Shown: positions 12,252 through 27,193 of the stretch, one piece after another
How the letters are laid out: each line of letters opens with the position of its first letter
Position numbering within the stretch: the first letter of the stretch is position 1
The notes under the pieces: generated by a model
The model's database searches: none
Told to the model about the DNA's origin: nothing
Seen by the model: the letters and a program-made list of their open reading frames with translations, nothing else
Made by a program: the position numbers and the translations under genes
Assembly: GCF_025751575.1 (NCBI RefSeq)
Contig: NZ_JAOWLA010000001.1
Location: 62,001 to 126,000, forward strand
Direction: 5' to 3'
Length of the DNA: 64,000 bases
Source: Albidovulum sediminicola
Lineage (GTDB): Bacteria; Pseudomonadota; Alphaproteobacteria; Rhodobacterales; Rhodobacteraceae

Positions 12252-12336
12252 CCCGCTTGCGCCAGACCCGGTGCCCGAATATCGCTTGCGGCGGGACACC
12301 CCTCCCCAACGAGGGGCGACTATCTGGAAGGATACC
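12252..12336 (+). promoter_or_regulatory. Structured leader of serC-serA, candidate serC RNA motif
   Basis: Directly before serC lies hairpin CCCCTC-CCCAAC-GAGGGG (12299-12316), 10 bases before the ribosome site GGAAGGA (12326-12332). An outer pairing CCCGC (12252-12256) with GCGGG (12291-12295) is possible. A conserved serC RNA element of unknown ligand has been described upstream of alphaproteobacterial serC-serA operons. Location and hairpins fit, but I could not align to its consensus. Confidence 0.4.
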
Positions 12337-13494
<1,158 letters not shown>

Positions 13495-17393: not shown

Positions 17394-19529
17394 GTGAACA
17401 TCGCGGACAAGCTTGTCAGGGAAACCCGGGCCCGGCTGGCGGCCGAACGCCTGCTGGAACAGAAGAAGCGCGAACTGTTCGCGGCCAACGAACAGCTCGC
17501 GCAACACGCGCTCAACCTGTCAGACCAGATCGTCGAGCAACGCAGCTCCCTTGAAACCGCCCATTCCGAAATGCGGATCGCCCGGAACCGGCTCTGGGAC
17601 GCGCTCGACACGATTCGCGACGGCTTCGCGCTTTTCGACGGCGACCTGCGGCTTGTGGTCGCGAACCGCGCCTATCTCGCTCCGTTCGAGGGGGTCGAGG
17701 GGGTCGGCCCGGGCACCAGCTACGACGCGCTCTTGCGGACGCTGGCCGAAGGCGGCATCGCGGACTTGGAGGGGATGGACGCCGACGACTGGCGCCACGA
17801 CATGACCGCCCGCATGGTGCGCGAGGTCATCGCGCCCCGGGAGATCCGGCTCCTGAGCGGGCATCGCATCCGCCTGCTCGACCGGCGCTGCGACTCGGGC
17901 GACCTGGTGAGCCTTGCACAGAACATCACCCGCGCGACCGAACGGGAGGCCGAACTGCGCGACGCGCGCCAGAAGGCAGAGGCCGCAAGCCGCGCGAAGT
18001 CGACCTTCCTCGCCAACATGAGCCATGAACTGCGCACCCCCATGAACGGGATCGTGGGCATGGCGGAACTGCTTTGCGAAACGGCGCTGACCGACGAACA
18101 GCGGCTATATGCCGAAACCATCCGCTCCTCCGGCGCGGCGCTGCTCTCGATCATCAACGACATCCTCGACTATTCCAAGGCCGAGGCACAGCGATTGCGC
18201 CTGGAGGCGAAGCCCTTCGACCTCGAACATTGCCTGCATGAGGTGATGCTGCTGCTGGAACCCTCGGCGCGCGACAAGGGCCTTCGTCTGATGGTCGATT
18301 TCGACATGTTCCTGCCCACCCGCTATCTTACCGACCCGGGCCGGTTCCGGCAGATCCTCACCAACCTGATCGGCAACGCGGTGAAGTTCACCGAAAGCGG
18401 GCATGTGCTGATGCGCGTGGTCGGTATGGCCCTGGAGGGCAACGATTACGAAGTGCATGTGACGGTGGAGGACACGGGCATCGGCATCGCCGAAGAGCAC
18501 CTCGACCACATCTTCGGTGAGTTCAACCAGGTCGAGGATCAGTCGAACCGCAAGTTCGAGGGCAGCGGTCTCGGCCTTGCGATCACCCGCCAGCTGGTCG
18601 GGCTGATGGGCGGGTCGGTCTGGGTCGATAGCGAGCTTGGGCAGGGGACCTGCTTCGGCTTCAAGCTGACGCTGAGGGCCGCGGAGCCCATCGTCGTCGA
18701 TCATCCCGACCGCCCGATCCTTCTGCGCTCGGCCCTCGTGGTGGATGAACTGCCGATGAACCGGAAGATCATCGAGCGGCAGTTGCAGACCTATGGGTTG
18801 ACCGTCACCCACTGCCGATCGGCGGCCGAGGCCCTGGCGGCCTTCGGCGGCGGCACCGGCATCGACCTCGTGCTGATCGACGAACACATCGCCCCCGTCG
18901 CTGGGCAGCCGCTGTGCGCCGCGCTCCGTGCCGCCGGGCCCAAGGTGCCACTGCTCGGTCTTTTCGCGGACCCCGCCGCGCAGGGCCTGGACCTGCCCTA
19001 TGCTGGGCGGCTGCAAAAGCCCGTCCTGCGCAGCGAGCTTTACCATCACCTGCGCGCACTCTCAGTGTCGCGGGCGGCGGATCTCTCCCACGAGGCAACC
19101 GACTGCGGGGGCCGATCGGGCCGTCGGATGCGGGTCCTGGTGGCGGAGGACAATCGCACCAACCAGCTCGTGTTCACCAAGATGGTGCAGGGCTTCGACA
19201 TCGAGCTTGAGTTGGCGGCCAACGGGCGGGAGGCCGTCGCACTTTGGCAAAGATTCCGCCCCGACGTGATCTTCATGGACATCTCCATGCCCGAGGTCGA
19301 CGGGCGGGAGGCGACCCGGAGCATCCGTGCCCAGGAACGGGGCACCGGCGCCCATGTGCCCATCATCGCCCTCACCGCCCAGGCGCTCGACGGGGAGGAA
19401 ACGGCCAGCTGCCCGGACGGGATCGACCGATACCTGAAAAAGCCGCTGCAGAAGATCACGCTGGCCGCGACATTGGCAGCCTTCCGTCCGGACGGCACCG
19501 CCGATCCGGTGCCGGGCAATCCCGCCTAA
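17394..19529 (+). CDS. Soluble hybrid histidine kinase with two receiver domains
   Basis: 711 aa, GTG 17394 with GGAGG 6 bases upstream (an in-frame TTG at 17340 lacks one). Order: N-terminal coiled coil (1-65), PAS (about 68-180), HisKA with H-box MSHELRTPMNG (His near 206), HATPase with N-box NLIGNAVKF, DTGIGIA and GSGLGLA, a first receiver (about 440-560) that keeps Asp in DLVLID and Lys in LQKP but lacks the usual Thr/Ser, and a canonical second receiver (AEDN, FMDISMPEVDG, LTAQ, KKP). No membrane segment, so it senses a cytoplasmic signal. An orphan; the Hpt protein at 30.5 kb is a possible partner. Confidence 0.92.
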   Translation: MNIADKLVRETRARLAAERLLEQKKRELFAANEQLAQHALNLSDQIVEQRSSLETAHSEMRIARNRLWDALDTIRDGFALFDGDLRLVVANRAYLAPFEGVEGVGPGTSYDALLRTLAEGGIADLEGMDADDWRHDMTARMVREVIAPREIRLLSGHRIRLLDRRCDSGDLVSLAQNITRATEREAELRDARQKAEAASRAKSTFLANMSHELRTPMNGIVGMAELLCETALTDEQRLYAETIRSSGAALLSIINDILDYSKAEAQRLRLEAKPFDLEHCLHEVMLLLEPSARDKGLRLMVDFDMFLPTRYLTDPGRFRQILTNLIGNAVKFTESGHVLMRVVGMALEGNDYEVHVTVEDTGIGIAEEHLDHIFGEFNQVEDQSNRKFEGSGLGLAITRQLVGLMGGSVWVDSELGQGTCFGFKLTLRAAEPIVVDHPDRPILLRSALVVDELPMNRKIIERQLQTYGLTVTHCRSAAEALAAFGGGTGIDLVLIDEHIAPVAGQPLCAALRAAGPKVPLLGLFADPAAQGLDLPYAGRLQKPVLRSELYHHLRALSVSRAADLSHEATDCGGRSGRRMRVLVAEDNRTNQLVFTKMVQGFDIELELAANGREAVALWQRFRPDVIFMDISMPEVDGREATRSIRAQERGTGAHVPIIALTAQALDGEETASCPDGIDRYLKKPLQKITLAATLAAFRPDGTADPVPGNPA

Positions 19530-25857: not shown

Positions 25858-26481
25858 ATGACCCGCAATCTGATCCCTGGCATTCTCGCCATGGCCGCCA
25901 TCGTGGTGGCCTCGAACATCCTCGTGCAGTTCCTTTTCGGCCAATGGCTGACCTGGGGCGCCTTCACCTACCCCTTCGCCTTCCTCGTGACCGACCTGAC
26001 CAACCGCCTTCAGGGCGCCGCCGCCGCCCGCAAGGTCGTCGTCGCGGGCTTCGTCATCGGCCTGATCTGCTCGCTCATCGGCAGCCAGATCATGGGCGAG
26101 TTCGGCCCCCTGGTCACGCTGCGCGTTGCCATCGGCTCGGCGCTGGCGTTCCTGCTCGCGCAGCTTCTCGACATCAGCGTCTTCAATCGCCTGCGCGAGG
26201 GAAGCTGGTGGCGCGCGCCGCTCGTCTCGACGCTCGCGGGCTCGTCCCTCGACACCGCGCTGTTCTTCACGGTGGCATTTTCGGCGTCTCTTGCGTTCAT
26301 CGACCCGGCGACCGACGTGAGCTGGGCGGGCGAAACGCTGCCGCTGATGGGCGTCGGCCCGATGGTCCCGCTCTGGGTTTCGCTCGGCTTCGCCGACTGG
26401 CTGGTGAAATTGTCTTTGGCGGCTGTCGCATTGGTGCCATTCCGCATGATTGTCGGAAAATTGACCGCAAAGCTTGCGTGA
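25858..26481 (+). CDS. Queuosine precursor transporter (YhhQ/COG1738 family)
   Basis: 207 aa, six hydrophobic segments. FAFLVTDLTNRLQG and the LREGSWWRAPLVSTLAGSSLDTALFFTVAF region are YhhQ-family signatures. It imports preQ0/preQ1 (or queuine) for tRNA queuosine. The upstream leader has a preQ1-like aptamer covering its ribosome site, which fits feedback control by the imported base. Confidence 0.92.
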   Translation: MTRNLIPGILAMAAIVVASNILVQFLFGQWLTWGAFTYPFAFLVTDLTNRLQGAAAARKVVVAGFVIGLICSLIGSQIMGEFGPLVTLRVAIGSALAFLLAQLLDISVFNRLREGSWWRAPLVSTLAGSSLDTALFFTVAFSASLAFIDPATDVSWAGETLPLMGVGPMVPLWVSLGFADWLVKLSLAAVALVPFRMIVGKLTAKLA

Positions 26482-26536
26482 AAGGTTTTGACAAACACAA
26501 AATCTGTGGCAGCCTGTGGATAACGGCAACCCAGCG

Positions 26537-26552
26537 AAAGGAGGTGATCCAG
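26537..26552 (+). promoter_or_regulatory. 16-base exact complement of the 16S rRNA 3' end (extreme Shine-Dalgarno)
   Basis: AAAGGAGGTGATCCAG is the reverse complement of the usual alphaproteobacterial 16S 3' terminus CTGGATCACCTCCTTT. Ordinary ribosome sites in this window match 4 to 7 bases. Read on the plus strand it lies with ideal spacing before GTG 26552. A TTGACA box at 26488-26493 lies upstream without a clear -10 partner. Confidence 0.7.
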
Positions 26553-26608
26553 TGTCTAGAGTGATATTGGAGAGAGGTGTCAGGACAGTAATGGAGGCCG
26601 TGGCCTGA
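26552..26608 (+). CDS. 18-residue open frame, possible leader peptide of arfB
   Basis: GTG start, peptide VSRVILERGVRTVMEAVA, stop TGA 26606-26608. GGAGG lies 7 bases before the GTG within a 16-base match to the anti-Shine-Dalgarno, so initiation should be very efficient. No run of one amino acid is present, so classic amino-acid attenuation is unlikely. After the stop come small inverted repeats and a terminator hairpin before arfB. It may be a translated leader or a ribosome-binding RNA whose peptide does not matter. Confidence 0.45.
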   Translation: MSRVILERGVRTVMEAVA

Positions 26609-26690
26609 GGGCAAACCCGAAGGTTTCAACCCATGACTGGGCCATGCCGAACACCGGCACCCTAACTGGTCCATCTCCTTAGATCTCGGA

Positions 26691-26718
26691 GGGCCGCTCC
26701 AACCCGGAGCGGCCCTTT
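26691..26718 (+). terminator. Intrinsic terminator between the short frame and arfB
   Basis: GGGCCGCTCC (26691-26700), loop AACCC, GGAGCGGCCC (26706-26715), then TTTCCGTTTCC. The 10-bp perfect stem ends 55 bases before the arfB start, so it could end a small RNA or attenuate arfB. Confidence 0.75.
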
Positions 26719-26773
26719 CCGTTTCCGGCCGCCACCCTTGACCCCGGGCCGCCAAGCGCCCAGAACGCCCCGC

Positions 26774-27193
26774 ATGCTCTGGATCAATGACACCATCGCT
26801 ATCGCCGACTGGGAGCTGAGCGAAAGCTTCATCCGGGCCTCCGGCCCCGGCGGGCAGAACGTGAACAAGGTGTCGAGCGCGGTCGAGTTGCGCTTTGAGG
26901 CGGAGCGCAGCCCGAACCTGACGGCGCCGGTCAAGACCCGGCTGAAACGTCTGGCGGGCCGTCGCTGGACCGAAGGCGGCGCAATCGTGATCCGGGCCGA
27001 GGAAAGCCGGAGCCAGGCCCAGAACCGGGAAATCGCGCGCGAACGTCTTGCCGAGCTGATCCGCCAGGCGCTGATCGCCCCCAAAAGGCGTATCGCGACC
27101 AAGCCGACGCTGGGCAGCCAGCGCCGCAGGCTTCAGGCGAAAAGCGAACGCAGCGCCGTCAAGGCGCTGCGTGGCAAGGTCGAGGACGAATAG
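26774..27193 (+). CDS. arfB: Alternative ribosome-rescue factor ArfB (YaeJ-type peptidyl-tRNA hydrolase)
   Basis: 139 aa. The catalytic GGQ is in RASGPGGQNVNKVSSAVELRF (about residues 23-43). The C-terminal tail is strongly basic (Lys/Arg from about 100 to 135), as needed to enter the empty mRNA channel of stalled ribosomes. It lacks the long N-terminal domain of RF1/RF2. There is no recognisable ribosome site before ATG 26774, in contrast to the perfect site of the short frame upstream. Convergent with argG, one base between stops. Confidence 0.95.
   Translation: MLWINDTIAIADWELSESFIRASGPGGQNVNKVSSAVELRFEAERSPNLTAPVKTRLKRLAGRRWTEGGAIVIRAEESRSQAQNREIARERLAELIRQALIAPKRRIATKPTLGSQRRRLQAKSERSAVKALRGKVEDE

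Follow-up and report, generated by a model that had tools for sequence, protein, structure and literature searches.

Between a queuosine precursor transporter gene and arfB in Albidovulum sediminicola lies a stretch with a 16-base match to the 3′ end of 16S rRNA, and the question is what this stretch does. The initial annotation had taken it for a leader that senses 30S subunits and decides readthrough into arfB, with two alternatives: an independent small RNA, or a minus-strand RNA imitating the 16S tail. We analysed it in the window, i.e. the whole 64,000-nucleotide stretch of DNA under study, and in related genomes; the features are collected in Table 1. As annotated, the match is exact in position and complementarity, the 18-codon GTG frame starts at 26552 and stops at 26608, a terminator with a 10-bp stem lies at 26691-26718, and the arfB start, ATG 26774, has no visible Shine–Dalgarno sequence (SD).

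Table 1. Positions in the window of the small RNA, its parts and the adjoining genes.
Feature	Position	Strand	Basis or remark
Queuosine precursor transporter gene, upstream	25858..26481	+	TIGR00697, 91.8 bits (cut-off 51)
Promoter-like block: TTGACA 26488-26493, 16-nt spacer, CAGCCT 26510-26515	26488..26515	+	By eye
Putative RNA	26522..26722	+	5′ end estimated, 3′ end given by the terminator
Extended SD GAAAGGAGGTGATCCAG	26536..26552	+	Complementary to the 16S 3′ tail
Start-codon hairpin	26548..26571	+	26548-26556 paired with 26563-26571; fold and pair counts
sORF: GTG start, 18 codons VSRVILERGVRTVMEAVA, TGA stop	26552..26608	+	Reading frame
Anti-SD-like box CATCTCCTT	26672..26680	+	Predicted partner of SD 26538-26546
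Intrinsic terminator, 10-bp stem, short T run	26691..26718	+	Sequence and fold
arfB, downstream, not part of the RNA	26774..27193	+	NCBIfam PRK09256, 184.7 bits (cut-off 100)

The start block AAAGGAGGTGATCCAG (26537-26552) is an exact 16-base complement of the 16S 3′ tail, and with G26536 included the complement extends to 17 bases of the tail ...CTGGATCACCTCCTTTCT; G26552 is shared, being both the last base of the 16S match and the first base of the GTG start. The 16S reference was the conserved 41-nt end, ending in this tail, which was compared with plasmid records: 217 records matched, 209 of them at 99% identity or more, and the 15 matches listed were all identical over the whole 41-nt query and all from Alphaproteobacteria, among them Rhodobacter sp. 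CZR27, Gemmobacter, Paracoccus and Azospirillum. When the genomes' own 16S was sought with the RF00177 profile, none of five genomes gave a match, versus 9 of 14 control genomes. The sequence AAAGGAGGTGATCC occurs a single time in the 4.13-Mb draft genome. Allowing up to two mismatches, AAGGAGGTGATCC was found at seven sites in the window (1.5 expected), the perfect version only once.

The SD was tallied in 43 loci fetched by similarity or by RF01867, L059 being excluded. An A-rich stretch followed by GGAGGTG is present in all 43, which is the tally's own search rule, and the following A, T, C and C are kept in 38, 41, 42 and 41 of the 43 loci, respectively. In a larger set of Rhodobacteraceae the SD tail was altered in 61 of 248 (57 with GTCC and four with CTTC instead of ATCC); even in this family, some members thus do not have the full match to 16S. 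The GTCC variant would retain a G–U pair with 16S. The near-constant region ends with GATCC, at what we take to be the junction of the single-stranded 16S tail with helix 45 (E. coli numbering), and past GATCC the bases follow an internal partner instead of 16S. A stray 16S fragment was considered and ruled out, as many lineages diverge from 16S past GATCC, where there is a start codon with its frame. For the minus-strand imitation of the 16S tail we see no support beyond its being the same bases reversed; the promoter-like block, the frame and the terminator are all on the plus strand.

Bases resembling the promoter-like block are also found upstream in genus relatives and in some family members; a sigma-70 scan found no site. 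We regard the block as the putative promoter of the RNA. At the other end, the terminator is built from GGGCCGCTCC (26691-26700), a loop (26701-26705) and GGAGCGGCCC (26706-26715), followed by TTT. A simple terminator scan, which looks for five T within eight bases, missed this stem for that reason.

In a permissive Rfam scan of the 451 bases from 26400 to 26850, the CC2171 family, RF01867, matched 26528-26716 with 37 bits and E 2.3e-6 (genome-wide E 5.0e-6). CC2171 is reportedly a Caulobacter small RNA, said to go back to Landt et al. in 2008. The alignment runs end to end (model 1-159), the conserved 5′ block of the model, GAAAGGAGGUGAUCCAGUGUCU, is identical in the window, and the model's terminal stem aligns with the window terminator. 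The RNA shares with CC2171/RF01867 the start block, a similar size, a 3′ stem at the terminator and a mostly single copy per genome. The RF01867 consensus, of type sRNA, differs in having a long-range stem, CAUUGUC/GACAAUG, from the early codons to the pre-terminator segment, whose positions are gaps in the window alignment, and in having neither an SD-complement helix nor a start hairpin. As this stem is absent and the match is below the gathering score of 75 bits, we do not file the RNA as a formal RF01867 member; judged by its sequence, it is a stand-alone small RNA gene and a divergent relative of the catalogued CC2171 family.

Two further RNA features of the window were seen. A serC leader RNA (RF00517) at 12289-12340 on the plus strand scores 72.4 bits, above its gathering score. 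ARAGORN reported a selenocysteine tRNA at 18630-18720 on the plus strand; in an Rfam scan of 18500-18850 no family reached E 0.5, and the tRNA is probably a false call.

Full-model RF01867 matches were found in 42 of 61 genomes, the window's included, within the window's family and in other families, and the gathering score was reached in one genome only. No match was seen in the other 19, among them G024, G033 and G034, which belong to the window's family and are nearly complete. Among 14 control genomes, Caulobacter vibrioides and Deinobacterium chartae gave matches, one of the two above the cut-off; the unexpected match in D. chartae indicates that single weak RF01867 matches can be false. 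Two genomes, G008 and G048, matched twice, and the second match of G008 (L059) has no SD block. The two copies of G048 (L023, L052) were of different types, one with 24 codons and the SD tail GATCG, the other Sphingomonadales-like with 18 codons. When 21 other genomes of the genus were searched with the DNA of 26482-26773, every one matched, at 83-94% identity over about 211-247 bases. The exact block GAAAGGAGGTGATCCNNTG was present in 44 of 289 genomes of the class (the window's included), once in each, and its reversed control in none; the start block is therefore not due to chance. By a manual count of rows, the exact start block occurred in 26 of 51 Alphaproteobacteria and in 0 of 149 other Pseudomonadota sampled. 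In named genomes, GAAAGGAGGTGATCCNNTGTC was found in at least 119 stretches, and of the 80 matches listed 76 have titles of alphaproteobacterial taxa, three say only "Proteobacteria" and one is a Gemmatimonadetes MAG. A plasmid search with the window RNA gave no match.

The loci were sorted into groups R, Z, S, M, B and O, which we defined by regular expressions on the peptides, R being the Rhodobacteraceae type and S the Sphingomonadales type; of the loci of the window's family that fall outside R, one is in S (L042) and three are in M (L056, L057, L058). The transporter gene lies upstream in all 40 R-type loci. Downstream and on the same strand, arfB follows within about 440 nt in 23 of the 40 and at about 1.1-1.5 kb in six; it was not found in the examined flank of the remaining 11, one of which (L161) has only 254 nt downstream. 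In the window's family, L042 and L057 have both neighbours, and L056 and L058 have neither in their flanks. In L139, a Hyphomonadaceae MAG, arfB is upstream on the other strand, and in the nine loci (eight genomes) of other families, L021-L025, L027, L046, L047 and L052, neither gene was seen within the examined flanks. These counts exclude a longest-ORF survey, which was noisy and picked wrong-frame ORFs. Since loci without arfB occur in the same genus as well as in other families, the RNA is, as far as synteny can tell, a gene of its own, INDEPENDENCE from arfB. In L105, L152 and L161, an arfB-like ATG could be discerned by eye 17-21 nt past the terminator stem, which makes some readthrough into arfB likely there. 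In some Rhizobiales-type loci (L080, L083, L150) the next downstream gene is yaiI-like (DUF188), as judged by eye from its first codons.

The reading frame behind the start block is kept, although the peptides differ widely between lineages. Its length is 18 codons in the R type (38 of 40 loci) and the S type (19 of 20), 14 codons in all five B loci and 18-39 codons in Z, M and O, except for L077 and L164. These two exceptions have 50 codons or more (the script's cut was at 50), with the same extended SD standing before signal-peptide-like proteins. Two origins are conceivable for them: reuse of the SD by itself, or growth of the sORF to a protein gene. The ratio pN/pS, determined on 70 sequences of the Rhodobacteraceae type only, was 0.89 for the sORF frame versus 0.60 and 0.76 for the other two frames, and these sequences had no third-position excess. 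For the R-type peptide we thus see no sign in the sequences of selection at the amino-acid level, including purifying selection as expected of a small protein gene. Of the 35 Z-type sequences, two have no complement of the SD and 33 have one; in 29 of these 33 its distance from the SD (50, 53, 56, 59 or 62 nt) has a common residue modulo 3. This spacing in steps of three suggests a frame held open for translation. The motifs SHCH and TWIVAS recur in Rhizobiales peptides, and the TWIVAS stretch is the SD complement itself. By eye, a small hairpin, GGnG-CARC-CYYC, was also seen to recur around the stop codon, in varying frame or past the stop (e.g. in L025, L047, L058, L084 and L093), and in Rhodobacteraceae a CAGC/CAGA version lies 3′ of the stop (by eye).

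The two bases after GATCC, namely the base before the start codon and the first base of the start codon (N1N2), occur as AG, GA, AA, TG, GG, CG, TA and AT. We looked for the own complement of each sequence, N2′N1′GG with G–U allowed at N2, in the sORF at 20-76 nt from the SD start, excluding sequences that do not fit AAAGGAGGTGNNCC plus start. Of the 178 sequences, 159 have it; after clustering at 75% identity it was present in 74 of 87 clusters and absent in 13. With N1N2 permuted among clusters the mean was 49.3, and 74 was reached in 0 of 5000 permutations, a comparison that controls relatedness only roughly, as does the clustering. Control intervals gave no excess (28 at 76-132 nt, permuted 31.0; 23 at 110-166 nt, permuted 28.1). 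When N1N2 was permuted only within groups, an excess persisted in most of them, the observed counts being 28 of 29 for Z (reached in 1 of 5000), 16 of 16 for R and S together (21 of 5000) and 12 of 14 for M (74 of 5000); for O it was not convincing (9 of 16; 364 of 5000).

In a second test the element was located by the invariant part of the SD only, at 40-76 nt, and sequences without AAAGGAGGTGATCC were excluded. N1 was paired in 35 of 53 sequences, the permuted mean being 22.2 and 35 being reached in none of 10000 permutations; the pairs were A-T (18), G-C (9), T-A (5), C-G (2) and T-G (1), and the 18 unpaired sequences include the Bradyrhizobium type. No distinct R (0 of 24) or S (0 of 4) sequence had N1 paired in this interval, and in the R type the N1N2 partner is nearer to the start. 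A change within one genus can be seen in Roseococcus, where CCAG goes with CCTGG in L099 and CCGG goes with CCCGG in L123. The complement element stands in differing reading frames between the groups (TGG ATC, GCG GAT, GGA TCG), which points to a constraint on the RNA.

The pairing was then scored on alignments. For Z (n = 35), the SD-complement helix together with the CAUUGUC/GACAAUG stem had 83.4% of cells paired (shuffles 80.9, 0 of 500) and a covariation score of 0.185 (shuffles 0.140, 0 of 500), with five pairs changed on both sides (35 of 500 shuffles) and 19 further pair types (13 of 500). When the structure was slid along the alignment, 28.5-46.2% of cells were paired and the score was at most 0.134. 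Four of the five both-side changes are in the long-range stem, which is 85.7% paired and changed at four of its seven pairs, and one is N1; the GGAGGU part of the helix is 75% paired and never changed on both sides. The subset of 31 sequences without L085, L101, L111 and L171 had the same score and was weaker on two measures (93 and 265 of 500). The helix and the long-range stem cross and would thus be mutually exclusive unless a pseudoknot forms. The start hairpin of the R type was scored on 45 distinct sequences, after L053 with its one-base deletion was dropped and identical 44-mers were collapsed. It had 95.3% of cells paired (shuffles 94.4, 2 of 500; slid 39.5-47.4%), both-side changes at two pairs (reached by 27 of 500 shuffles), 10 further pair types (153 of 500) and a covariation score reached by 2 of 500.

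The fold of 26522-26722 has a minimum free energy of -85.8 kcal/mol (z -3.5), and none of 200 shuffles was as low. In this fold 26548-26552 is paired with 26567-26571, which places the start codon inside a hairpin, and the SD at 26538-26546 pairs with the box at 26672-26680 with a probability of 0.77-0.87 per base. The duplex of the SD with a wider segment around the box reaches -20.0 kcal/mol (1 of 100 shuffles as low), and the terminator stem does not overlap this predicted lock. A box C[AGT][CT]CTCC is present in 63 of 69 R-type rows, a count that omits L053 and the ten loci L211-L220, which are of other types. The box mostly stays compatible with GGAGGTG although the adjacent bases vary. 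The base opposite the variable SD position is C for A (32 of 35) and C for G (26 of 26), so this helix has no covariation in the R type, where it is predicted from folding and from the presence of the box. An apparent compensation between SD and box, GGTGC with GCACC in L048, was rejected: L245 has the same SD change with CCACC, and the larger table has no covariation.

The mean predicted pairing of GGAGGUG was 0.65-0.69 in Z, M and O, where a plain fold leaves the SD just partly paired; S reached 0.80, B 0.89 and the R rows (n = 80, ten of them of other types) 0.90. Ranked against 100 shuffles, the duplex of the SD with downstream sequence came among the best five for 14 R sequences (n = 40), 14 Z (n = 35), 5 M (n = 22), 1 B (n = 5), 8 O (n = 20) and no S sequence (n = 20). 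In these 20 Sphingomonadales-type sequences SD-to-downstream pairing showed no excess (mean z 0.02), and most members have another stem, CAUGGUUCAGC with GCUGACCAUG. For naked RNA, with the ribosome ignored, opening the SD and start would cost 14.7 kcal/mol; a 16S-type tail would gain -25.7 kcal/mol on this SD versus -10.1 on a common 7-nt SD. These values suggest a reason for the length of the SD, since an ordinary one could not break the lock.

The reading that we prefer, and to which we give about an even chance, is that of a stand-alone, mRNA-like small RNA whose translation start is shut by its own structure and opened by free 30S subunits. Its independence, its conservation, the pairing and covariation at the start site and the loss of peptide identity with the frame kept are supported in silico; that it is transcribed, that 30S opens it and that its output is the open or closed state, or ribosome occupancy, rather than the peptide, is what we infer. 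In the window the start codon would be held in the short hairpin, with the SD paired to the anti-SD-like box just 5′ of the terminator; in many Rhizobiales and some other lineages a single 16S-tail-like element of the sORF (CTGGATC..GCCTCC) could cover both. The RNA would be closed when no 30S is free. With free 30S, the 16S tail would displace the lock by way of the long SD, which, being complementary to the whole free tail, can outcompete it, and translating ribosomes would then hold the RNA open. A near-constant SD beside bases that track an internal partner is what competition between 16S and an internal imitation predicts. The annotated role of anti-SD binding of 30S as the key event gains support from the start codon lying in a covarying hairpin and the SD being predicted to pair with an internal anti-SD-like element; its reading as an arfB-specific leader is not borne out. 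In a wider form, which we find rather doubtful, the RNA would be a class-wide switch with free 30S as its ligand, the SD being held by an internal imitation of the tail and translation reporting the supply of 30S.

Other explanations were weighed against this one. It is unlikely, in our estimate, that the RNA is a base-pairing riboregulator, in which the anti-SD-like element would be a seed blocking the ribosome sites of other mRNAs and the own SD a cap from which ribosome loading frees the seed. Anti-SD small RNAs are known in the class, as far as the accessible parts of the reports on SisA-D (PMC12559287) and on the RSs0680a type (PMC3927594) go, and a box that remains mostly GGAGGTG-compatible amid changing neighbours would suit such a role; however, the position of the element varies by lineage, the Sphingomonadales-type group has no excess, and the covariation between its base beside the start codon and the N1N2 of the same RNA is nothing that the binding of targets would call for. 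Such covarying pairs over the start would also bring no gain to an abundant decoy merely tying up initiating 30S subunits, and the exact block is found once per genome where present. The strength of the SD–tail duplex and the highly variable peptide fit a decoy, yet we consider this explanation very unlikely.

That the short peptide is the product of a structured small mRNA, with the lock as ordinary translational control, seems quite unlikely to us: the Z frame is kept by steps of three and SHCH and TWIVAS recur in Rhizobiales, but the R-type pN/pS and third positions speak against it, TWIVAS is the SD complement, and elsewhere this complement is in other frames. We put equally little trust as in the decoy in the reading of the initial annotation, a leader controlling arfB by readthrough according to 30S availability. 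It draws on the R-type loci with arfB close by and on L105, L152 and L161, where the ATG is too near the terminator for a promoter of its own below it; on the other hand, the RNA is also present where arfB is not its neighbour, both within the genus and in other families, and the terminator stem is outside the predicted lock. As a general function, an arfB leader is ruled out by synteny, the linkage not being general. What survives of that claim is a possible coupling by readthrough in some loci, and its arfB-specific part gives way to synteny and to the own promoter-like block and terminator; these, together with the arfB-free loci, favour the independent small RNA that had been listed as an alternative.

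Riboswitches that sequester the SD, such as SAM-II and preQ1, hide it by internal pairing until a ligand opens it. The preferred reading, a small RNA opened by 30S, differs from them in that the suggested ligand is 30S rather than a metabolite and that the message carries no long gene. Among small RNAs, SisA-D and the sponge CrfA of Caulobacter are likewise alphaproteobacterial and have an anti-SD signature, but SisA-D are four siblings acting on target mRNAs, and the accessible part of the report describes no sORF or extended SD for them (PMC12559287). The rnTrpL/peTrpL RNA of Sinorhizobium is small as well, and its translated frame is very short, at 14 codons; unlike the window RNA it has, according to the portion of the paper available, a leaderless start, acts as a trp attenuator and encodes a functional peptide (PMC10117765). 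In Staphylococcus aureus, extended SD motifs likewise pair beyond the usual length, but as far as the available text goes these are general translation starts in another phylum and not one locked RNA (PMC13009471).

In the accessible parts of the literature naming CC2171, only the Rfam 15 report and a list from Mesorhizobium huakuii, which includes an RF01867 candidate (PMC5596092), bear on it, and later work is possible. Of the 27 Caulobacter RNAs reported in 2008, only CrfA had been further characterised according to the available part of a 2018 paper (PMC5988900). Papers on 16S-tail mimics, on the dual-function RNAs of the class and on extended SDs do not describe the RNA or its lock in their titles or the opening of their abstracts. 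The RNA family itself is catalogued; the predicted locking of the start site inside the same RNA, with its covariation, is new here, the SD-complement lock not being part of the Rfam consensus.

Although it is found in several orders of a large class, the RNA has hardly been studied. It offers a case of double constraint, in which the SD is near-invariant and the bases next to it change together with an internal partner. We know of no RNA gauge of free ribosome subunits; if 30S opens this RNA, cells would have one.
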